From Verrucomicrobiota bacterium (GTDB lineage Bacteria; Verrucomicrobiota; Verrucomicrobiia; Opitutales; Opitutaceae), in contig JACRQG010000007.1 of the NCBI GenBank assembly GCA_016222805.1, positions 496,001-560,000 of the forward strand: a stretch of 64,000 nt of DNA, given 5' to 3'. The notes beneath the pieces were generated by a model that was not told the DNA's origin, searched no databases, and saw only the letters and a list, made by a program, of their open reading frames with translations. Each line of letters begins with the position of its first letter. The first letter of the stretch is position 1. Both the position numbers and the translations under genes were made by a program. Shown piece after piece: positions 22,488-33,542 of this stretch.

Positions 22488-23147
22488 ATGTCGAAACTTT
22501 TCCCGAAGTCGGCGAACAAGCTGCCCCTCCAGATCATTGTGTATCTGGCGGTGGTCGCGGGTATCGCCACGGCGGGCGTCACGTACTACATGACGCCGAA
22601 GTACTCGCGGGTCGGGTATGCCCCGGTGCAGCCGGTCCCGTTCAGCCACGCGAAGCACGTCCAGGAGGTCGGGCTCGATTGCCGCTACTGTCACTCCAAC
22701 GTCGACAAGTCGGGGCACTCGAACGTGCCGACGTCGCAGACGTGCATGAATTGCCATAGCATCATCAAGACGACCAGCCCCCTGCTGGCCCCGGTGCGGG
22801 AGAGCTTCGCTTCCGGCTCCCCGGTGCCGTGGGTCTGGATTCACCAGACGCCGGATTATGCTTATTTCAATCACGCGGCCCACGTGAACCGCGGGGTCTC
22901 CTGCGTGGAGTGCCACGGCAAGGTCAACGAGATGGACACGGTCCAGCACACCCAGCCGCTCAGCATGGCTTTCTGTCTCGAGTGCCATCGCGACCCGGGA
23001 TCGCGGCTGCGCCACCCGAAGGATGTCTTCAACCTCGACTCCCAGCGTCTGGCGGATCAGGGCGAGGCGGGTCGGAAGGCGGCGGCCGCCTTCACGCATG
23101 ACTGGAAACTAATGCCGCCGCAGAGTTGCTCGGGGTGCCACCGATGA
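22488..23147 (+). CDS. actA: Alternative complex III subunit A, pentaheme cytochrome c
   Basis: A 219-residue protein with one N-terminal membrane anchor (about 13-33) and five CxxCH motifs: CRYCH (65-69), CMNCH (86-90), CVECH (139-143), CLECH (163-167) and CSGCH (214-218). This matches ActA of alternative complex III, which replaces the bc1 complex by oxidising menaquinol and passing electrons through multiheme cytochromes on the periplasmic side. The stop overlaps the actB start as ATGA, so the two are translationally coupled. It is the first gene of a ten-gene operon that runs to 33542. Confidence 0.93.
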   Translation: MSKLFPKSANKLPLQIIVYLAVVAGIATAGVTYYMTPKYSRVGYAPVQPVPFSHAKHVQEVGLDCRYCHSNVDKSGHSNVPTSQTCMNCHSIIKTTSPLLAPVRESFASGSPVPWVWIHQTPDYAYFNHAAHVNRGVSCVECHGKVNEMDTVQHTQPLSMAFCLECHRDPGSRLRHPKDVFNLDSQRLADQGEAGRKAAAAFTHDWKLMPPQSCSGCHR

Positions 23148-26100
23148 AACGCAAATTTGAACATCCTGCTCCTGCCGACAGCGAGCTGACCACCGGTCCG
23201 AAATACTGGCGCAGCCTCGGCGAGCTGGCGGGCACGCCCGGTTTCCGGGCACAGCTTGAGCGCGAGTTCCCCGAGGGAGCCTCCGAGCTCGATGGCGTCG
23301 ATCGGCGCCATTTCATGAAGATCATGGCGGCGTCGTTCGCGTTGGGCGGCGTCGGGTTGGCGGGTTGCCGCCGGCCGGAGAAGTTCATCCTCCCTTACGG
23401 GAAGTCGGTCGAAGGCGTGATTCCGGGGTTGCCCTCGTATTATGCGACGGCGATGCCGTTGCGGCGCTCCGCCATCCCGCTCTTGGCCGAGACCCATCAG
23501 GGGCGTCCGACCAAGCTCGAGGGCAATCCTTCCTTCAAGCTCCACGACGGCTCCGCCTCGCTGCTGGCGCAGGCGTCGATTCTCGACCTCTACGACCCTG
23601 ACCGCGCCAAGGCCCACACGCGGGCCGGGGCGGTGTTGAGCAACGAGCAGGTCGGGGCCTTCCTCGGGACGGTAGCGCAGAAGTACGCGGCGACGCAGGG
23701 GGCCGGGCTGGCCTTTCTGGCGGAGGAATCTTCGTCTCCGACGCGTGCCCGGCTGGTGCGGGAATTGCGGGCCAAGCTTCCCCGTTCCCTCTGGGCCGAA
23801 TACGAGCCGATCGTGGATGAACCCCCGGTCTCCGCCGCGCAGGCAGCGTTTGGGGTCGCGGTTCGCCCGTTGTATCACTTTGCCAAGGCGCGTCGCATTC
23901 TCTCGCTCGATGCGGATTTCCTGCAGGGCGAATCCGGCAATCTCTACCACGCCCGCGGGTTTTCCCAGGGCCGAAAGGTAACCAAGCCGAGCGATCCGAT
24001 GAACCGCCTCTACGTGGCGGAGAGCGGCCTTTCGCTCACCGGCACGATGGCGGACCATCGCCTGCGCGTGCCGACGCACCACATGCTGGCGTTGGCCGCG
24101 CGCGTCGTGGCGGCGGCCTACCCGCAGGCCGAGGCTTCGCTGGCGCCCTATTATCAGGGGCTCAAGGTTGACGCCAAGTGGGTGGAGGCCTGTGTGGCCG
24201 ATCTCCTGGCGCACCGGGGCGCCGCCTTGGTGGTCGCAGGTTCGCACCTGCCGCCTGAGGTGCATGCGCTGGTCCATGGCCTGAATACGCTGCTGGAGGC
24301 CACCGGCCAGACGGTCACCTACGTTCCGGCGGAGTCCACCGCGGGCCGTTCGACTCTCGCGGGATTGGCCAACGCCATCCGCGGCGGCTCCGTCAAGACC
24401 CTGGTCATTCTGGGCGGCAATCCCGCCTATAATGCGCCGGCGGACCTCGACTGGGCTGCTTTGCAGAAGTCGGTGGAGGAGGTCATCCGCTTGGGATACT
24501 ATGCCGACGAGACGAGCGCGGTGAACCCGGCCACTACCACTCACCTCGCCGCGGCTCACTATCTCGAATCCTGGGGTGATGCCCGGGCGATCGACGGCAC
24601 CATCGTGCCGGTGCAGCCGATGATTCTCCCGCTCTTCGGGGGCCTGACGGAAATCGAAGTCTTGGCCCGGCTGGCTGGCCAGACGCCGGTGGACCCGTAC
24701 GCCTTGGTGTCCGCGACCATCACCGGGCTGGCCGGGGCCGGCGCCAACACCGAAAAGACGATGGCGCGCTTCCTTCACGATGGCCTGCTCGAGGGCTCGG
24801 CCTACCGTCCCGTGGCCGTGCGCTTCGACCAGGCGGGGGTCGAGCGGCTTTTCTCCACTCCGGCGCCGTTGCCGGCGTTCAGTGCCTCCAACCTGGAGGT
24901 GCGGTTCGTGGCCGACCACAAGGTCGACGACGGTCGCTTTGCGAACAACGGCTGGCTGCAGGAATGCCCGGATCCGATCACGCGCATTGCCTGGGACAAC
25001 GCCATTTTGGTCAGCCCCAAGCTGGGCAAGGAACTCGGCATCGAGCCCAAGGGTTCGTTGCTCCAGGTGGCGCGCAAGGAGACGGCCGAGTTCACGATCG
25101 GCAAGGAGAACGCCCACGTCTTTGAGCTCGCCATCGGCGGGCGGAGGATCCGCGGCCCGGTGCACATCCAGCCCGGCCTGGCCAACTATACCGTGGTGGT
25201 GGCGCTCGGCTATGGCCGGACGAACTCCGGACGGGTGGGGACGGGGGCCGGCTGCAACGCGTATCCCTTGCGCACCAGCACGTCGCTGCATGCGGCGGCG
25301 GGCGGCAAGCTCACTTCCACCGGCGAGCGCGCGCTGCTCGCCAACACCCAGGAACACTGGTCGATGGAGGGGCGCGACATCATTCGCGAGGCCAACTACG
25401 AAGGCACCTCCAGCTACCAGGAAAACCCCGGCTACGTGAAGACCATCGGCATGGAGTCGCATTCGCCCTCCATCCTCGGGGAGTACGGCGAAAAGATGTC
25501 GCCGCAGGAACGCGCCACCCAGATTCCGCGGGGCAACTCGCTCTACCAGACGCCGACCTTCGACGGGCACCACCAGTGGGGCATGTCGATCGATCTCAAC
25601 ACCTGCATCGGGTGCAACGCGTGCGTGGTCGCCTGCCAGGCGGAGAACAACATCCCGATCGTCGGCAAGCAGCAGGTGCTGCGCGGACGCGAGATGCACT
25701 GGATCCGGATCGATCGCTACTATTCCAGCGGCACGATCGACGCCGAGGCCTTTGGCGGCGCGGGCAACCAGGAGATTCCGGAGGAGCCGCAGATTTCGCT
25801 GCAGCCGATGACGTGTGTGCACTGTGAACTCGCCCCGTGCGAGACCGTGTGCCCCGTCAACGCCACCGTGCATGATTCGGAGGGAATCAACACGATGGCC
25901 TACAATCGCTGCATCGGCACCCGCTATTGCGCGAACAACTGTCCGTACAAGGTCAGGCGCTTCAACTTCTTCGATTGGAACCAGCGTTCGCTCGACAGCC
26001 TCTACCTCGGGCCGGTCTCCGCCTACGGCATGCCGGAGTTGCTGCAGATGGCGAAGAATCCGGAGGTCACCGTGCGCATGCGCGGCGTGATGGAGAAGTG

Positions 26101-26560
26101 CACCTACTGCGTGCAGCGGATCCAGAATGCCAAGATTCAGCACAAGGTGAAGATGGCGCAGGCCGGACGACCGGGCGACGTGATGGTGCCGGATCGTGCC
26201 TTCCAGGTCGCCTGCGAGCAGACCTGCCCGGTGGACGCCATCGTCTTCGGCAACCTCCTCGAGGCGAACAGCGCCGTGAACCAGGCCAAGGCCCGCGAGC
26301 AGGATTACGCCGTGCTGGGGTACCTCAACGTGCGTCCGCGCACGACCTACTCCGGCAAGCTCCGCAATCCCAATCCCAAGATGCCCGACTACCAGCCGCT
26401 GCCGTTCAGCCGCGTGGAGTATGCCCGGAAGAACGAGCCGGCGGCGCATGGCTCCGGCCATGACGATCACGGCTCCCACGGCCACGACAAGAAGGCGGAA
26501 AAGAAGGCCCCCTCCCACGGGTCGCGCTCGTCCGCGCCCACAACCGGAGGGCTCAGCTAA
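23144..26560 (+). CDS. actB: Alternative complex III subunit B, molybdopterin-oxidoreductase-like fused to an iron-sulfur domain
   Basis: A 1138-residue protein from the ATG at 23144, in the coupled ATGA. The N-terminus has [17 protein letters not shown] and LAGC, a Tat-type motif with twin Arg 54-55 and a lipobox-like Cys75. A long domain related to molybdopterin oxidoreductases follows; in known ActB it binds no molybdenum cofactor. The C-terminal third is a four-cluster ferredoxin domain: [48 protein letters not shown], and a split CTYCVQRI / [10 protein letters not shown]. The last 40 residues form a His/Asp/Gly-rich tail ([14 protein letters not shown]). ActB sits on the periplasmic face and relays electrons between the quinol site and ActA/ActE. 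Confidence 0.93.
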
Positions 26561-27987
26561 TGGCGCACGCCGAACATTCCGCCGCCGCGCATCCGCTCCT
26601 GCAGGAGGTCAAGCCTGCGGTGCTGCCGCGCGCGGTGTTGGTCGAACACAACCGCAGCTTCTCCTGGATCACCGAGAAGATCTGCGGGATCATCGAGGGC
26701 AAGACCCCCGCCTGGTGGTGGGTCTGCTTCATTCTGGCGTGCTTTGTCGCGTCGTTCACGGTTGGCGGCATCACCTACCTCGTCGCGACCGGCGTCGGCG
26801 TGTGGGGACATGCCAACCCGGTCAACTGGGCGTGGGACATCGTCAACTTCGTCTTCTGGATCGGCATCGGCCACGCCGGCACGCTGATCTCGGCGATTCT
26901 GTGCCTGCTGCGCCAGAAGTGGCGCACGTCGATCAACCGGGCCGCCGAGGCCATGACGATCTTCGCGGTCGTCTGCGCGGCGATCTTCCCGGTCTTTCAC
27001 GTCGGTCGCGTGTGGTTCGCCTGGTACCTCTTCCCCATCCCGAACTCCAATGCGATCTGGCAGAACTTCCGGTCGCCGCTCGAGTGGGACGTGTTCGCCG
27101 TGTCGACCTACGGCACCGTCTCGGTCTGCTTCTGGTACGTCGGCCTGATTCCGGACTTGGCGGTCCTGCGTGACCGGTTCTTCGCTGCCGGCAACAAGGT
27201 GCGGGCCTTCCTCTACGGCCTGTTTGCCATGGGTTGGCGCGGCTCGAACCGCCACTGGAGCAACTACGAGATGGCCTACCTGATCCTGGCCGGCATCTCG
27301 ACGCCCCTCGTGCTCTCGGTGCACACCATCGTGTCGTTCGACTTCGCGGTGTCGCTCCTGCCGGGCTGGCATACGACCATCTTCCCGCCGTACTTCGTCG
27401 CCGGCGCCATCTTCTCCGGCTTCGGCATGGTGCTCACGCTCATGCTGCCGCTGCGGGCGATCTACAAGCTCGAGGACCTGATCACGCAGTACCACATCGA
27501 CTGCATGTGCAAGATCACCCTCGCGACGGGCACCATCGTGGGCTACGCCTACGGCATGGAGTTCTTCATCGCGTGGTACGGGGCCAACCCGTACGAGGGC
27601 TTCGCCTTCGTCAACCGCGCGTTCGGCCACTACGCCTGGGCCTACTGGTGGATGATCGGGTGCAACGTCATCACCCCGCAGTTCTTCTGGTTCAAGTGGG
27701 TCCGCCAGAACACCACCCTGGTCTGGGTGCTCTCGATCTTCGTCAACGTCGGCATGTGGTTCGAGCGGTTCGTCATCATCGTGACGTCCCTCGCCCGCGA
27801 CTTCCTGCCGTCGAGCTGGGGCTACTACTCCCCGAGCATCGTCGAGATCTTCACCTTCTTCGGGACGTTCGGCGTATTTTCGGTCCTCTTCCTCCTCTTC
27901 ATCCGCTTCCTCCCGGTCATGCCCATGGCCGAGTTGAAGGCGGTCACTCCCCAGGCCGACGTCCACGGTGGCCACGAGAAACACTGA
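26560..27987 (+). CDS. actC: Alternative complex III subunit C, NrfD/PsrC-type quinol-binding membrane protein
   Basis: A 475-residue polytopic protein (about ten membrane helices) of the NrfD/PsrC family. Landmarks are [20 protein letters not shown] at the N-terminus, the helix pair around [20 protein letters not shown], and [20 protein letters not shown]. It is one of the two related membrane subunits thought to hold the quinol oxidation site and possibly a proton path. The start overlaps the actB stop (TAATG). It is complete in length. Confidence 0.93.
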
Positions 27988-27993
27988 TTCGTC

Positions 27994-28533
27994 ATGCCGA
28001 CGTCCGCTTCAACCTACGGCCTGATCGCCACCTTCGAGACCGCCCCCGCGCTCTACCACGCGGCGGAGGCGGTGCGCGATGCGGGCTACCGCAATTGGGA
28101 CTGCATCACGCCCTTCCCGGTGCACGGCCTCGACAAGGCGATGGGGCTGCGGCGCTCGATTGTGCCGCGCATCTCGCTGGCCGGCGGCATCACCGGCTTC
28201 ATCACCGGCATGTCGATGATCTGGTGGACCGGCGCCGTCGACTACCAGTTGGTGGTGGGTGGCAAGCCGCTGTTCAGCCCGATGTTCGCCTTCCCGGTGA
28301 GTTACGAGCTGACGATTCTGTTCACCGCCTTCGCAACCATCATCGGCATGTTCGTCGTCAACGGCCTGCCGATGCACTACCATCCCGTGCTCAAGTACGA
28401 TCACATCCGCCGCGGGATGGACGACACGTTTTTCATCGTCATCGAAGCGCGGGACCCGCGCTTCAACCTCGCGAACACCCGCGCGCTGCTCGAGAAGGTC
28501 GGAGGAAAGGCGATCGCGGAACTGGAAGCCTGA
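27994..28533 (+). CDS. actD: Alternative complex III subunit D (DUF3341)
   Basis: A 179-residue protein with an N-terminal soluble part (YGLIATFETAPALYHAAEAV, VHGLDKAMGLRRS), two membrane helices (about 60-82 and 98-122) and the conserved MHYHPVLKYDHIRRGMDDTF region. This is the DUF3341 layout of ActD, a structural subunit of the complex. It follows actC by 6 bp. Confidence 0.92.
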   Translation: MPTSASTYGLIATFETAPALYHAAEAVRDAGYRNWDCITPFPVHGLDKAMGLRRSIVPRISLAGGITGFITGMSMIWWTGAVDYQLVVGGKPLFSPMFAFPVSYELTILFTAFATIIGMFVVNGLPMHYHPVLKYDHIRRGMDDTFFIVIEARDPRFNLANTRALLEKVGGKAIAELEA

Positions 28534-28536
28534 GCC

Positions 28537-29175
28537 ATGAGGAACGTCTACCTCGTCACCCTTTTCGTGGTCGCGCTCGTGGTCTCCATCCTCGGGTTCC
28601 GTGGCGCCACCTTCACCAAGCCACCGATCGACTTGTTCCCGGATTGGGCTTTCCCCGGCATGGAGGTCCAGCCGAAGCACCGTCCGCAGGCGGCGAGCAA
28701 GTTCTTCGCCGATGGCCGTTCGGATCGCCCGCCGCCGCCGCACACCGTCGCGCGCGGGATGCTCCGCGATGACGACCACCTGCACTTCGGCAAGACGGCC
28801 AGCGGTGCCTTTGCCACCGCTCTGCCGGCGAGCCTCACGGTCGACCGCAAGTTCCTCGAGCGCGGACAGGACCGCTACCAGATCTACTGCGCCCCGTGCC
28901 ATGGCGCCCTCGGCGATGGCAACGGAATCACGAAGCGCTACGGCATGGGCGCCACGCCGTCCTATCACGACCCCCGCCTCCGGGCGCTCGCGGACGGAGA
29001 GATCTTCAACACCATCACGGCCGGCAAGAACACGATGATGCCCTACGCGGACAAGATCACCCCCGAGGATCGGTGGGCGGTCGTCGCCTATGTGCGGGCG
29101 CTGCAGCGGGCCCAGCAGGGCACCGTTGCCGATGTCACGGACACCGCCGCCAAGAAAGCCCTCGGCCTGCCATGA
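28537..29175 (+). CDS. actE: Alternative complex III subunit E, monoheme cytochrome c
   Basis: A 212-residue protein with an N-terminal hydrophobic segment (residues 4-21) and one heme motif CAPCH (118-122). The axial methionine is probably M167 or M168 in GKNTMMPYA. The 'YQIYCAPCHG..GDGNG' context is that of ActE, the cytochrome that hands electrons to the terminal acceptor. The stop overlaps the next start as ATGA. Confidence 0.92.
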   Translation: MRNVYLVTLFVVALVVSILGFRGATFTKPPIDLFPDWAFPGMEVQPKHRPQAASKFFADGRSDRPPPPHTVARGMLRDDDHLHFGKTASGAFATALPASLTVDRKFLERGQDRYQIYCAPCHGALGDGNGITKRYGMGATPSYHDPRLRALADGEIFNTITAGKNTMMPYADKITPEDRWAVVAYVRALQRAQQGTVADVTDTAAKKALGLP

Positions 29176-30455
29176 GTTCCCACGCTGCCACTGCCCCGGC
29201 GGAGATGCCGGCCGCCTCCTCCTCTCCCTCCCAACTGGCGGGCAAGGCGCTCACGATTGGCCTGGTCGGCCTGGCCGTGACTGCTGCCGGCCTGCTCGTG
29301 CCGCACAACGCCCGTGCGGTCGCGTTGTCGTATCTGGTGGGCATCACCTACTGGACGGCCATCGCGATCGGCATGCTGATGCTGATCCTGATTCATCACA
29401 TCTTTGATGCGTCGTGGTCGACCGTCATCCGGCGCCAGTTCGAGCACGGGATCTCGGCCTTCAAATGGCTGGGCCTGCTGTTCCTCCCCCTGGTGCTCGC
29501 CTCGTTCCTGTACCAGCGGGACCTCATCTGGCCGTGGCTCGACCTCGGGCATGAGATGCACGGCGGGCACACGGTCGGACACGACCCGCTGTACCTGAAG
29601 AAATCCGCCTTCCTCAATCCAGGCATGTTCATCGGCATGACCGCGGGTTTCTTCCTCATTTGGATGGGCTTGGCCGCCCGCCTGCGGAAGGCATCGTTCA
29701 CGCAGGACGCGGATGGCGACGTGGCCTGGACCTTCCGCAACCGCGTGACGGCCGCCGCGGGACTTCCGCTCGGCGCGCTGTCGCTCACCTTCGCCGCCAT
29801 CTACTGGGTGAAGTCGCTCGAGTACCACTGGTTTTCCACGATGTATGGCGTGTGGTTCTTCGCCAATTGCGTGCGCGGAGCCCTCTCGATCGGGGTGATC
29901 ATCATGGTCTGGCTCTGGCACCGCGGTGACTACAAGGGCATCCTGAACAACAACCACTTTCACAGCATCGGCATGCTGATGCTGGCCTTCACGGTCTTCT
30001 GGGCGTACGTGACGTTCTCGCAGTACTTCCTCATCTGGAATGCCAACGTTCCCGAAGAGACCTTCTGGTACAACCTCCGCGAGATCAATCACGACGGCGG
30101 GCCGAACCAATGGAAGTGGATCGGGATCATCGGCATCCTTTTCGGACACTTCTTCATCCCCTTTTTCTTCCTGCTCTCCTACCGGTACAAGATCACGAAG
30201 CATATCATTCGCCGCATCGCGATTTGGATTCTCGCCGTGATCCTGCTCGACATGTGCTACAACATCATGCCGGCGCTGAAGGACTCCCACGGCAACGCCC
30301 AGCCGCTGTTGTCGCTCAACCTCGTCTGGATCCTCTCGTCGGTGGTCGGGGTGGGCGGCGTCTGTGTCTGGTCCTACCTGCGCAGCTTCCCGACGGCGAA
30401 GCTGATTCCCATCCGGGATCCCCGCATTGGCGAGAGCCTCACCCACCATGAGTGA
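29172..30455 (+). CDS. actF: Alternative complex III subunit F, second NrfD-like membrane protein
   Basis: A 427-residue polytopic protein from the ATG at 29172 (the frame is open upstream, but this start is coupled to actE by ATGA). About ten membrane helices are visible, with landmarks YWTAIAIGMLMLILIHHIFD, YWVKSLEYHWFSTMYGVWFF and AFTVFWAYVTFSQYFLIWNA. These match ActF, the second quinone-type membrane subunit that arose by duplication of ActC. It overlaps the next gene by 8 bp. Confidence 0.92.
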   Translation: MSSHAATAPAEMPAASSSPSQLAGKALTIGLVGLAVTAAGLLVPHNARAVALSYLVGITYWTAIAIGMLMLILIHHIFDASWSTVIRRQFEHGISAFKWLGLLFLPLVLASFLYQRDLIWPWLDLGHEMHGGHTVGHDPLYLKKSAFLNPGMFIGMTAGFFLIWMGLAARLRKASFTQDADGDVAWTFRNRVTAAAGLPLGALSLTFAAIYWVKSLEYHWFSTMYGVWFFANCVRGALSIGVIIMVWLWHRGDYKGILNNNHFHSIGMLMLAFTVFWAYVTFSQYFLIWNANVPEETFWYNLREINHDGGPNQWKWIGIIGILFGHFFIPFFFLLSYRYKITKHIIRRIAIWILAVILLDMCYNIMPALKDSHGNAQPLLSLNLVWILSSVVGVGGVCVWSYLRSFPTAKLIPIRDPRIGESLTHHE

Positions 30456-30780
30456 TTCCCACGTCACGCCGGCCCGGCCGGTTTCCCTCTTCACGATCGG
30501 ACTGCTCCTGGTGGTCTTCGCCGCGTTCCTGGTGGTCGTGCGTTATCTCTACACCCCGGCGGCGGAGGCGCCGTACAACGCCGCCGCGGAAAACCTCCCG
30601 AAGGACATGGAGTGGCGCGCCACCGCGGAACTTCGCCGGAAGGCCCTGGCCGAGCTCCGCGCCAAGGAAACGAAGCAGGCGGCCTCCTATGCCTGGATCG
30701 ATCAGAAGGCGGGCGTGGTCCAGTTGCCCCTCGACCGGGCGATGGACCTGACCGTGCAACATTACCAGGCGAAGAAATGA
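30448..30780 (+). CDS. Small single-span membrane protein of the act operon, function unknown
   Basis: A 110-residue protein starting at the ATG at 30448, which overlaps the actF stop. There is one membrane helix (about 13-36, LFTIGLLLVVFAAFLVVVRY), then an Ala/Glu/Lys-rich region and the C-terminal segment SYAWIDQKAGVVQLPLDRAM. From memory, short proteins ending in 'W.D...G.V.IPIDRAM' occur next to cytochrome oxidase/SCO genes in several phyla, but no activity is known to me. It is likely an accessory or assembly subunit of the act/Cco-like complex, on context only. Confidence 0.7.
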   Translation: MSDSHVTPARPVSLFTIGLLLVVFAAFLVVVRYLYTPAAEAPYNAAAENLPKDMEWRATAELRRKALAELRAKETKQAASYAWIDQKAGVVQLPLDRAMDLTVQHYQAKK

Positions 30781-30805
30781 GCGTCTGCGCGACCCCTTGA
30801 CTGCG

Positions 30806-32236
30806 ATGACCAATCAATCGACGAACGCCGGAGCGGCTGAAGTCACCGCGATCGATACTCACGCTCGCTGGCCGCTGCTTTATCTCATCGGCGCCGGCCT
30901 CGTGTGGCTGATCGTGAGCGGGGTCTTGTCCCTGATCGCGGCGATCCAATTGCACAGCCCTGCTTACCTCGCCGAATGCGCGTGGTTCACCCATGGCCGC
31001 GTCGAGGCGATGCGGGAAACCGCTTTCATCTACGGCTGGGCCGCCAACGCGGGACTGGCGATTGGCACCTGGCTGCTGGGGCGGCTCGGAGGCTATCCCC
31101 TGCGGGGCCTCAACTGGTTTGTCGTGGGCGGCGTCTTCTGGAATCTCGCCGTGGCTGCCGGGCTGATCGGAATCGCGGCCGGCGAAATGACCTCGTTCGC
31201 GGTGCTCCAATTGCCGCGCGCCGTGCAACCGCTCCTCGTCCTTTCCTACGCCGCCACCGCCATCTCGGGAGTTCTGGCGTGGTCCGGCCGCAAGCGGGCC
31301 GGCACCTTTGCCTCGCAGTGGTACGCCGTGGCGGCGCTGTTCCTCTTCCCGTGGTTCCTGACCGCGACGCAGGTGGTGCTCCTGTGGACTCCGGTGCGTG
31401 GTGTCGTGCAGGCGGTCGCCGCGGCCTGGTACGCCGAGGGGGTCTTCGCCCTCTGGCTGGCTCCGCTGGCCCTGGCGGGTGCGTACTACGTCGTTCCCAA
31501 GGTCTCCGGCCGGACGCTGCCGAGTTACGAGGCGGCGCCCGTGGCGTTCTGGACTTTGATCGTGGTGGGAACCTGGACCGCCGGACGCCACCTGGTGGGT
31601 GGCCCGGTGCCCGCCTGGCTGCCCACGATGGGAGTGGTCGGGACCAGCCTGTTGCTCTTCCACTTCCTCGTGTTGGCCTTCAACTTCAAGATCGCCCTGA
31701 CGCCGGCAGGTACGGCGATGAACTTCCTCCGCTTTGGACTCCTGGCGTATTTGCTCTACGGCGTCTTTACCACCATCGCCTCGTTTCGGGGGGTCGCGGC
31801 GCATGCGCAGTTCACCTTCGTGACGGTGGCGCTCGAGCAGTTGGGTTTCTACGGAGCCGTCTCGATGCTGTTCTTTGGCACTCTCTACTACATGGTCCCG
31901 CGGCTTACAGGACGGGATTGGGCGCTTCCCGGCTTGGCCTCCGCCCACTTTGTCACGGCGTCCACCGGGTTGGTGCTGGCGTTGGTGGCCCTGGCGGTTG
32001 CGGGCGAGACCCAGGGCAACCTCCTGCTCGAGGCCAAGGCGACCTACGCCGAGATCTTCCAGCAGGTCAGTGTGCCGCTGATGATTCACACGGCGGCCCA
32101 GTTCCTCCTGATCGCGGCGAACCTGCTCCTACTCGTCAACTTCGCGATGTCGGCCTGGGCCTGTGGTGAGAAGGCCTGCGCCTCCGCGGCCGGCCTGCTC
32201 CGCTCGTCCTCCTCGATGGAGGCTTCCGCGTCATGA
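30806..32236 (+). CDS. CcoN-like membrane protein lacking nearly all heme/copper ligands
   Basis: A 476-residue protein from the ATG at 30806 with about twelve membrane segments. It is recognisable as a cbb3 oxidase subunit I relative by WY...VFALWLAP, AYYVVPKVSGRTLPSYEAAP, FWTLIVVGTWTAGRHL and GTLYYMVPRLTGRDW. Aligned by eye to CcoN, the low-spin heme His of 'GRLRPLHTNAVIF' is R70 and the CuB His of 'WYGHN' is E211. 'HH' of 'PHHLHY' is R261-H262. The heme His pair of 'GHVHSG' is L343 and Q345. Only H262 of six ligands remains. It cannot be a normal oxygen-reducing subunit unless the alignment is wrong. The length and reading frame are intact, so it is not a decayed gene. It overlaps the next gene by 4 bp. 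Confidence 0.75.
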   Translation: MTNQSTNAGAAEVTAIDTHARWPLLYLIGAGLVWLIVSGVLSLIAAIQLHSPAYLAECAWFTHGRVEAMRETAFIYGWAANAGLAIGTWLLGRLGGYPLRGLNWFVVGGVFWNLAVAAGLIGIAAGEMTSFAVLQLPRAVQPLLVLSYAATAISGVLAWSGRKRAGTFASQWYAVAALFLFPWFLTATQVVLLWTPVRGVVQAVAAAWYAEGVFALWLAPLALAGAYYVVPKVSGRTLPSYEAAPVAFWTLIVVGTWTAGRHLVGGPVPAWLPTMGVVGTSLLLFHFLVLAFNFKIALTPAGTAMNFLRFGLLAYLLYGVFTTIASFRGVAAHAQFTFVTVALEQLGFYGAVSMLFFGTLYYMVPRLTGRDWALPGLASAHFVTASTGLVLALVALAVAGETQGNLLLEAKATYAEIFQQVSVPLMIHTAAQFLLIAANLLLLVNFAMSAWACGEKACASAAGLLRSSSSMEASAS

Positions 32237-32886
32237 AAAACGGCCCGCTCTTTCTCGTCGGTCTCTTCCTTTCCGTGCTGATCGCCTGGTCCGGCATCGT
32301 GCTCGGGTCCCACGCCCAACTCGGGCGGCAGACGCCGTTCTTCGATGAAGGTGACGGCGTAGCCTATCCGGCCCGGCAAATGGGGCTCGCGGCGCGGGGG
32401 CAGCTGGTTTACGCCGATCTCGGTTGTGCCTCCTGCCATACGCAGCAGGTGCGCCGGCCTGGTTTCGGCAACGACCAGGGCCGCGGATGGGGAGAGCGGC
32501 AGAGTGTCGCCCGCGACTATCTTTTCCAGACCCGCCCACAGTTGGGTGCTTCCCGATTCGGGCCGGATTTGACCAACCTCGGAGGCCGTAAGCCCCAACC
32601 GCCCACCGAGGAGGCGCTCTATCGCTTCCTGTACGAAGGGTCACCGACCCATCCGCCGTACGCGTTTCTCTTCGAGAACCTCCCCATCGCGGGTGAGGTA
32701 TCGTCCCTGGCGCTCAAGCTCAGCGGCACCAGCGCTCCCGCTTCCGGCCGGCAGATTGTCCCCGGCGAACGGGCGCGGACCCTCGTGGCTTATCTGCGCA
32801 ACTTGAACACTGTTTACGATTATCCGGAGTCCCGCCCGCTGCCGGTGGAGCAGAAGGCTCCCGCGAAGGAGGAGGCGAAGAAATGA
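32233..32886 (+). CDS. CcoO-like monoheme cytochrome c with unusual axial ligand
   Basis: A 217-residue protein with one N-terminal helix (about 5-25), heme motif CASCH (65-69) and the CcoO/FixO-type follow-up HTQQVRRPGFGNDQGRGWGE, then GASRFGPDLTNLGGR. In CcoO the axial methionine sits in 'S.MP.Y.FL'; here the corresponding block is SPTHPPYAFLF, with H140 in place of Met. The last methionine of the protein is M50, before the heme motif, so Met cannot be the distal ligand. It overlaps both neighbours by 4 bp (ATGA), which indicates tightly coupled synthesis with the CcoN-like and CcoP-like proteins. Confidence 0.8.
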   Translation: MKNGPLFLVGLFLSVLIAWSGIVLGSHAQLGRQTPFFDEGDGVAYPARQMGLAARGQLVYADLGCASCHTQQVRRPGFGNDQGRGWGERQSVARDYLFQTRPQLGASRFGPDLTNLGGRKPQPPTEEALYRFLYEGSPTHPPYAFLFENLPIAGEVSSLALKLSGTSAPASGRQIVPGERARTLVAYLRNLNTVYDYPESRPLPVEQKAPAKEEAKK

Positions 32887-33542
32887 GCGCACCCACCGGT
32901 TCCGACCCCCGCGTTGAACAGGCGCCCGTGACGGACGAGGCCCTGCTCGACAGCCACGACAAGCTGCTTGGCCGCCAGCCGGATGATAAGGCGCATTACC
33001 GCCTGCTGCCGCTCAACCTCCTGTTCCTGTTCAGCGGCCTGATCTTTTTCGCCGGCACCTACCTCGGGCGCTATGCCGGACATTTTCACCCGTCGGTTTT
33101 CAACGAGCACGGCCAGCCACCCAAGGCCGGCGCGGCCGTGGCAGTTGCCGTTGATCCGCTGGTGCTGGGCAAGAACGTCTATGGCCAGGTCTGTGCCGCG
33201 TGCCACCAGCCCAATGGGCAGGGATTGCCTCCGGCCTTTCCTCCCCTCGCCGGCTCGGAATGGGTGGCAGGCTCCGAAGAGCGCCTGATCCGGATCCTGC
33301 TCCACGGACTCCAGGGCCCGATCAAGGTCAAAGGCACCGAATTCAACGGTGCGATGCCGCCGGTGGGGCCGGGTTCGGGTTTCAACCTCAACCCCGAGAA
33401 GGTTGCGGCGGTCCTCACGTTTGTGCGCAAGGAATGGGGCGGCATCGCCACGCCGGTCGCCGCGGCCAAGGTGGCGGAAATTCGGGCCAAGGACGGAACC
33501 CGTCCTCCGCTCACCGTCGCGGACCTCGAGAAGATTCCGTGA
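32883..33542 (+). CDS. Membrane-anchored monoheme cytochrome c (CcoP/caa3-like)
   Basis: A 219-residue protein with a cytoplasmic N-terminus of about 40 residues (DSHDKLLGRQPDD), one membrane helix (about 43-61) and a periplasmic class I cytochrome c domain with CAACH (104-108) and axial M158 in GAMPPVG. The tail reads VAAVLTFVRKEWGG, as in cytochromes attached to oxidases. It is shorter than diheme CcoP (one heme only). It is the last gene of the act operon and would be the natural electron outlet of the complex, toward a soluble carrier or an oxidase encoded elsewhere. Confidence 0.8.
   Translation: MSAPTGSDPRVEQAPVTDEALLDSHDKLLGRQPDDKAHYRLLPLNLLFLFSGLIFFAGTYLGRYAGHFHPSVFNEHGQPPKAGAAVAVAVDPLVLGKNVYGQVCAACHQPNGQGLPPAFPPLAGSEWVAGSEERLIRILLHGLQGPIKVKGTEFNGAMPPVGPGSGFNLNPEKVAAVLTFVRKEWGGIATPVAAAKVAEIRAKDGTRPPLTVADLEKIP

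Follow-up and report, generated by a model that had tools for sequence, protein, structure and literature searches.

C-type oxidases beside alternative complex III

Alternative complex III (ACIII) is physically joined to an oxidase in Flavobacterium johnsoniae, according to passages of PMC8498564 on this supercomplex, which provides a precedent for an oxidase fold attached to ACIII. In verrucomicrobial methanotrophs the neighbor of ACIII is described as a cbb3 oxidase: passages of PMC8498564 and PMC11102522 place such an oxidase beside ACIII, the cbb3 type appears in lists for these organisms (PMC10205796, PMC8170126), and PMC6688271 ties the cbb3 oxidase beside the ACIII genes of M. kamchatkense Kam1 to high oxygen affinity. 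For an active cbb3 oxidase, CcoS is described as essential in PMC7558416. In the openly licensed literature, we found no report of a ligand-less CcoN or of heme-copper pseudoenzymes.

Here we describe a gene that stands beside ACIII and encodes a CcoN-like protein from which most of the catalytic site has gone. It lies in a 64,000-nucleotide stretch of contig JACRQG010000007.1 from a Verrucomicrobiota bacterium (hereafter the window, to whose numbering coordinates refer unless another contig is given). The F. johnsoniae oxidase is presumably an active A-type enzyme, whereas the fold linked to ACIII here is C-type and lacks its ligands.

Operon organization

All genes of the module lie on the forward strand. 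It opens with actA (22488..23147), which encodes a multiheme cytochrome c with Pfam cytochrome c7/c3 matches and a QrcA-like match of 79.7 bits, followed by actB (23144..26560), encoding the large iron-sulfur subunit with 4Fe-4S dicluster domains; the position of both genes is kept in relatives. Then come actC (26560..27987), for an NrfD-like membrane subunit (PF03916, 79.1 bits), actD (27994..28533; PF11821, 214.9 bits), actE (28537..29175), for a monoheme cytochrome c (PF13442, 53.1 bits), and actF (29172..30455), a membrane subunit named by its position, since 29232-30452 has no Pfam match and the gene precedes ccoN in relatives. The complete actA-F set thus stands directly upstream of the degenerate ccoN (30806..32236), in conserved order. 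The latter is followed by a gene for a CcoO/FixO-like monoheme cytochrome c (32233..32886; PF02433, 34.4 bits), in which CxxCH is kept and H140 occupies the axial-Met position, and by a gene for a second monoheme cytochrome c (32883..33542; PF00034, 44.3 bits), a CcoP-like single domain with a likely membrane anchor that keeps both CxxCH and Met158. Four-base overlaps join these last three genes, and the downstream neighbor of the module is an epimerase-family gene on the opposite strand.

Between actF and ccoN lies a gene for a small protein with one likely helix (30448..30780), which has no Pfam match over 30451-30777 and carries the motif SYAWIDQxxGVVxLPxDRAM. It accompanies intact and degenerate copies of ccoN alike: where the flanking sequence leaves room for it, tblastn detects a relative in 28 of 46 intact loci and in 46 of 83 degenerate ones.

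Fold and ligand positions of the CcoN-like protein

The degenerate CcoN is confidently predicted to have a full-length CcoN fold: its model has 12 long helices, and 442 of its residues superpose on CcoN of the cbb3 oxidase 3MK7 at 1.9 A. In agreement with the landmarks named in the initial annotation, the YYxVPK and YYMVPR blocks are shared with 3MK7, as are the helix count and a CcoO-like cytochrome in the operon. The catalytic site, on the other hand, is largely missing. Alignments to four solved CcoN chains give an identical mapping in which R70, E211, R261, L343 and Q345 replace heme and CuB ligands, and H262 is the sole survivor of the six histidines, so that the five missing ligands originally read by eye are borne out. 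The active-site tyrosine (Tyr251 in 3MK7) is G255. Of Thr215, Ser240 and Tyr317, which we take to be the K-channel residues of CcoN, the first two are replaced by A219 and A244, whereas Y315 keeps the third. The protein scores 85.6 bits against the curated ccoN equivalog (TIGR00780), far under its cut-off of 583, and its identity amounts to 21-23% to solved CcoN chains. A further histidine, H286 (31661-31663), lies outside the canonical ligand positions but is present in every one of 31 aligned degenerate proteins of the Opitutaceae type.

Intact and degenerate copies in the same operon slot

With P0001 as the query protein, 83 of the order's 132 genomes yield relatives at E up to 1e-5, a limit loose enough to let canonical CcoN through as well; at E up to 1e-22, 103 of the phylum's 387 genomes do. 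We fetched 136 loci and counted 131, all from the class of the window's organism, after setting aside five intact ones around which no ACIII genes were found (L137, L166-L169). Outside the sample remain 17 of the 103 phylum-match genomes (G169, G196, G285, G341, G347, G358, G381, G409, G418, G421, G175, G208, G243, G332, G351, G403, G406) and, from the order search, fragments of G057 and G009 and a weak match of G076. All six histidines and the tyrosine are kept in 47 of the 131 orthologs, and the other 84 are degenerate, with two to six histidines lost; since the loci were collected by their similarity to a degenerate query, this split describes the sample and not the prevalence. Among these 84 copies, 23 keep none of the six histidines, 40 keep one, eight keep two, 12 keep three and one keeps four; the active-site tyrosine is absent in 83.

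A partly overlapping set, in which some contigs are probably from the same genomes and which is so not fully independent, comprises the best 80 of 538 relatives in named GTDB contigs, which come from Opitutaceae, Opitutae, Opitutus, Cephaloticoccus, Lacunisphaera, Didemnitutus or Verrucomicrobia MAGs. The canonical ligand set is absent from all 80 (one is gapped at position 70), and the gene is present in all, with a frame of more than 440 aa in 79. Together with the 84 degenerate orthologs, this rules out an error confined to a single genome.

Where enough flank is available, actF precedes the gene in all 46 intact and all 78 degenerate loci, and actB does so in 41 of 41 and 68 of 71, respectively; downstream, a ccoO-like match follows in 45 of 45 intact and 82 of 82 degenerate loci, and a cytC-like match is found in 42 of 45 and 82 of 82. 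This shared order of actA-F, ccoN, ccoO and cytochrome indicates one and the same operon gene in its intact and degenerate forms, and ligand loss together with actF linkage recurs across the degenerate loci, which upholds the earlier proposal of a non-catalytic membrane subunit linked to ActA-F. In L148, L173 and L174 (family f33, genus g89), which are the three degenerate exceptions for actB, actA-actD were not found within 10 kb upstream, and actE, actF, ccoN and the two cytochrome genes are retained, so that a link to a whole ACIII is less certain there.

The closest comparison is with the intact ACIII-linked C-type oxidase of Opitutales (L057, L080, L114), which is orthologous, occupies the same operon slot and shares 29-35% identity with the window protein, but has all ligands and a CcoS-like gene, neither of which the window locus has. 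The degenerate ccoN is a form of this ACIII-linked oxidase gene and not a separate new family. Of the suggestion that the locus represents a new kind of respiratory module, the maintained ACIII-linked subunit therefore stands, whereas its novelty as a family does not, since intact orthologs fill the same slot. One genome, G024, carries a degenerate ACIII-linked copy plus a separate intact copy (L137) with a CcoS-like gene and no ACIII genes found nearby.

Verrucomicrobial methanotrophs appear to be represented by family f30, in which pmoA was found in five of five tested genomes, as opposed to none of six other genomes tested. At the six histidine positions, L164 and L165 (G263) have Ser, Glu, Ser, His, Phe and Val, with Ser in place of the tyrosine, and L154 has Ala, Asp, Ala, His, Gln and Thr, with Ala in place of the tyrosine; in the five f30 genomes, no ccoN match exceeds 34 bits (cut-off 583). 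The gene has the same operon position beside ACIII as the one that appears in print as an oxidase, and here it lacks the ligands. Thus, what has been reported as a "cbb3 oxidase" next to ACIII in Methylacidiphilum appears to be a degenerate copy, the gene meant in those papers being identified by its position beside ACIII.

Parallel loss of the CcoS-like gene

Intact operons contain an additional small gene between actF and ccoN. Two such genes score 27.3 and 20.1 bits against Pfam FixS/CcoS, i.e., above and slightly below the cut-off of 23.1. A model built from nine intact loci finds this CcoS-like gene in all 46 intact loci that have room for it, including all 37 that played no part in model building, and in one of 81 degenerate loci that have room. 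The model has no match in the whole 64-kb window, and the junction where intact orthologous operons have the gene corresponds here to 30781..30805. Among independent pairs that differ in ligand state on the ActBC tree, CcoS differs in the same way in 9-10 of 10 (median p about 0.002). CcoS absence thus tracks ligand loss, the maturation factor having disappeared with the site that it serves. The sole degenerate copy with a CcoS-like gene upstream is L071 (family f9), which reads FFSNYHY at the seven positions and is possibly an intermediate.

Repeated loss of the ligands

CcoN trees were built without the seven ligand and tyrosine columns. The CcoN tree of 138 rows needs five changes of ligand state, all forced by well-supported branches. 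This first quick tree places 72 degenerate rows in one group; the group is broken up in a mixture-model tree of 46 of the 138 rows, chosen partly to omit the longest branches, which again needs five changes. None (0%) of 200 bootstrap trees of the 46-row set is compatible with one change, and one ancient loss, i.e., a single clade of all 24 degenerate rows in this set, is rejected (AU p 5.95e-9). Holding the 12 Opitutaceae rows together is borderline rejected on CcoN data (AU p 0.049), because f8 degenerate copies fall among those rows.

The ActB+ActC tree (112 rows) needs 13 changes, 10 of them forced. If losses alone are counted, it yields 18 groups, or 17 when f30, which is split by rooting, is counted once, with weak branches taken at face value. 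A clear recent loss is seen in G090 (two contigs, 100% complete), in which all seven positions differ despite a short ActBC branch (0.096). By these trees, the ligands were lost independently, with a minimum of five losses on the CcoN tree; the true number probably lies between 5 and 17, given the mutual attraction of relaxed sequences and the possible exchange of parts of the operon.

Other oxidases in the genomes

In 17 degenerate loci, which belong to four families, the module is followed on the same strand by a COX1 gene at a distance of 1.5-2.4 kb, and one intact locus likewise has a COX1 gene directly after the module, in a search that spanned about 4 kb. Genome-wide, 83 of the 84 genomes that carry a degenerate copy have a further COX1-family gene (matches that may include NO reductases), the exception being G037, a 91% complete draft. 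As 44 of 47 intact genomes also contain one, its presence does not distinguish intact from degenerate. Besides the intact copy itself, G010, G079 and the incomplete G005 have no COX1-family match, which fits a working oxidase there. The genome of the window encodes an aa3-like COX1 on a different contig from the ACIII operon. On contig C50 of this genome, outside the window, a weak COX1-family ORF (G000:C50:310706-311920, L005; 27.5 bits, under the cut-off) precedes a clear COX1 (C50:312870-314186, L003) by about 950 bases.

Possible functions of the degenerate subunit

Of 134 columns with at least 95% conservation over 31 intact genera, 41 are conserved to no more than 40% over 47 degenerate genera, among them the six histidines, the tyrosine, Thr215, Ser240 and ligand neighbors. 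The loss of ligands, tyrosine and part of the proton channel would make oxygen reduction impossible, and the non-catalytic nature of the subunit is well supported. The c-heme motifs, in turn, are kept: CxxCH is present in all 84 degenerate loci, both in the ccoO-like ORF and in the best cytC-like one. Among degenerate copies, 96% have Met158 of the second cytochrome and 64% the axial Met of the CcoO-like protein. The best cytC-like match is upstream of ccoN in four f29 loci, and in nine f2 loci (e.g., L126, L129) the CcoO-like and cytochrome c matches lie in one ORF, which suggests a fusion.

We consider it likely that the degenerate CcoN is a scaffold that docks c-type cytochromes at ACIII, from which electrons pass to another oxidase. 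Specifically, subunit I of a C-family heme-copper oxidase in an ancestral ACIII-oxidase module would have lost heme b, heme b3 and CuB along with its redox-active tyrosine and part of its proton channel, and would have been retained in the membrane, where it could hold the CcoO-like protein and the single-domain cytochrome c onto ACIII. Electrons would then flow from menaquinol through the hemes c of ACIII to those of the two cytochromes and would finally reach another oxidase, for which several relatives have a candidate in the same cluster. The COX1 genes downstream of the 17 degenerate loci and the further COX1-family genes in nearly all genomes with a degenerate copy would both suit such a hand-over. 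Both the relay role and the complex with ACIII are read from genes and alignments, as is the absence of the cofactors; of the functions offered in the initial annotation, docking or adaptor fits best. Weighing against a scaffold are the CcoS-like gene in L071, the partial sites described below, the faster evolution of degenerate copies and the retention of the axial Met in just 64% of CcoO-like proteins, as well as further COX1-family genes in most intact genomes too, the location of the window genome's aa3-like COX1 away from this operon and the L148, L173 and L174 loci, where actA-D were not found.

A different proposal is that residues other than the canonical ligands still hold one heme, or some other cofactor, which would make the subunit an electron carrier and not a bare scaffold. 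Family f31 retains both low-spin heme positions, and f2 retains His345 and mostly the CuB pair His257/258; with f5, these partial sites imply that one remaining heme is possible in some lineages, and the invariance of H286 also speaks for this proposal. However, the window protein keeps neither a low-spin nor a b3 ligand, each ligand position is a histidine in only 5 to 29 of the 84 degenerate copies, leaving the class without a common set, and CcoS was lost along with the ligands. We regard such a carrier as unlikely.

If the gene were instead a decaying oxidase pseudogene carried along by its operon, fast evolution and ligand positions that vary by genus would be expected, and degenerate copies do evolve faster than intact ones and do vary in this manner. 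Nevertheless, the frame covers the whole protein in each of the 84 degenerate copies, running to 467-581 aa when measured from the upstream stop, in keeping with the original description of a full-length, maintained gene. For same-genus pairs of at least 70% identity, dN/dS ranges from 0.047 to 0.287 in 23 degenerate pairs (non-independent, with dS up to 1.5; 17 of 40 pairs with dS above 1.5 or saturated were left out) and from 0.035 to 0.157 in eight intact pairs, the frames beginning at the upstream stop and including some non-coding codons. Both ranges lie far below 1, so that degenerate copies are relaxed, but clearly constrained. Structural residues, including many glycine, proline and tryptophan positions as well as Y227, Y228 and P231, are likewise retained in intact and degenerate copies, and the near-complete retention of full frames among the best 80 of 538 relatives speaks against decay too. 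Decay is accordingly very improbable as an explanation.

The 12-helix fold derives from a proton pump, and a proton-path or ion-translocating subunit added to ACIII had been among the first suggestions. It is now disfavored, to the point of being highly improbable: Ala219 and Ala244 stand at Thr215 and Ser240 in the window protein, and these two positions (K-channel residues, by our assumption) are kept in just 23% and 19% of degenerate genera, respectively. Finally, a working oxidase whose true ligands lie elsewhere and were misaligned at so low an identity to the solved chains is almost certainly wrong, as intact orthologs bridge the gap with the motifs GRxRxxHLN, WWFAHN, YNWAGVHHLIGGP and GHAHHG, all four solved chains give the same mapping, and CcoS loss follows the ligand call.

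Implications for ACIII assemblies

Returning to the scaffold, we lean toward the broader view that the heme-copper oxidase core was turned many times within one class into a heme-free bridge from ACIII to other oxidases, including the "high-affinity cbb3 oxidase" of the methanotrophs. Wherever the degenerate form is present, an inventory of high-affinity oxidases based on gene names would go wrong. An oxidase subunit that is repeatedly dead yet retained suggests a structural job beside ACIII that is separable from oxygen chemistry, and the intact, partly eroded and fully eroded copies form a natural series in which the needs of ACIII-oxidase assembly could be tested. If the scaffold role is true, ACIII assemblies would use a pseudo-oxidase as a wiring part.
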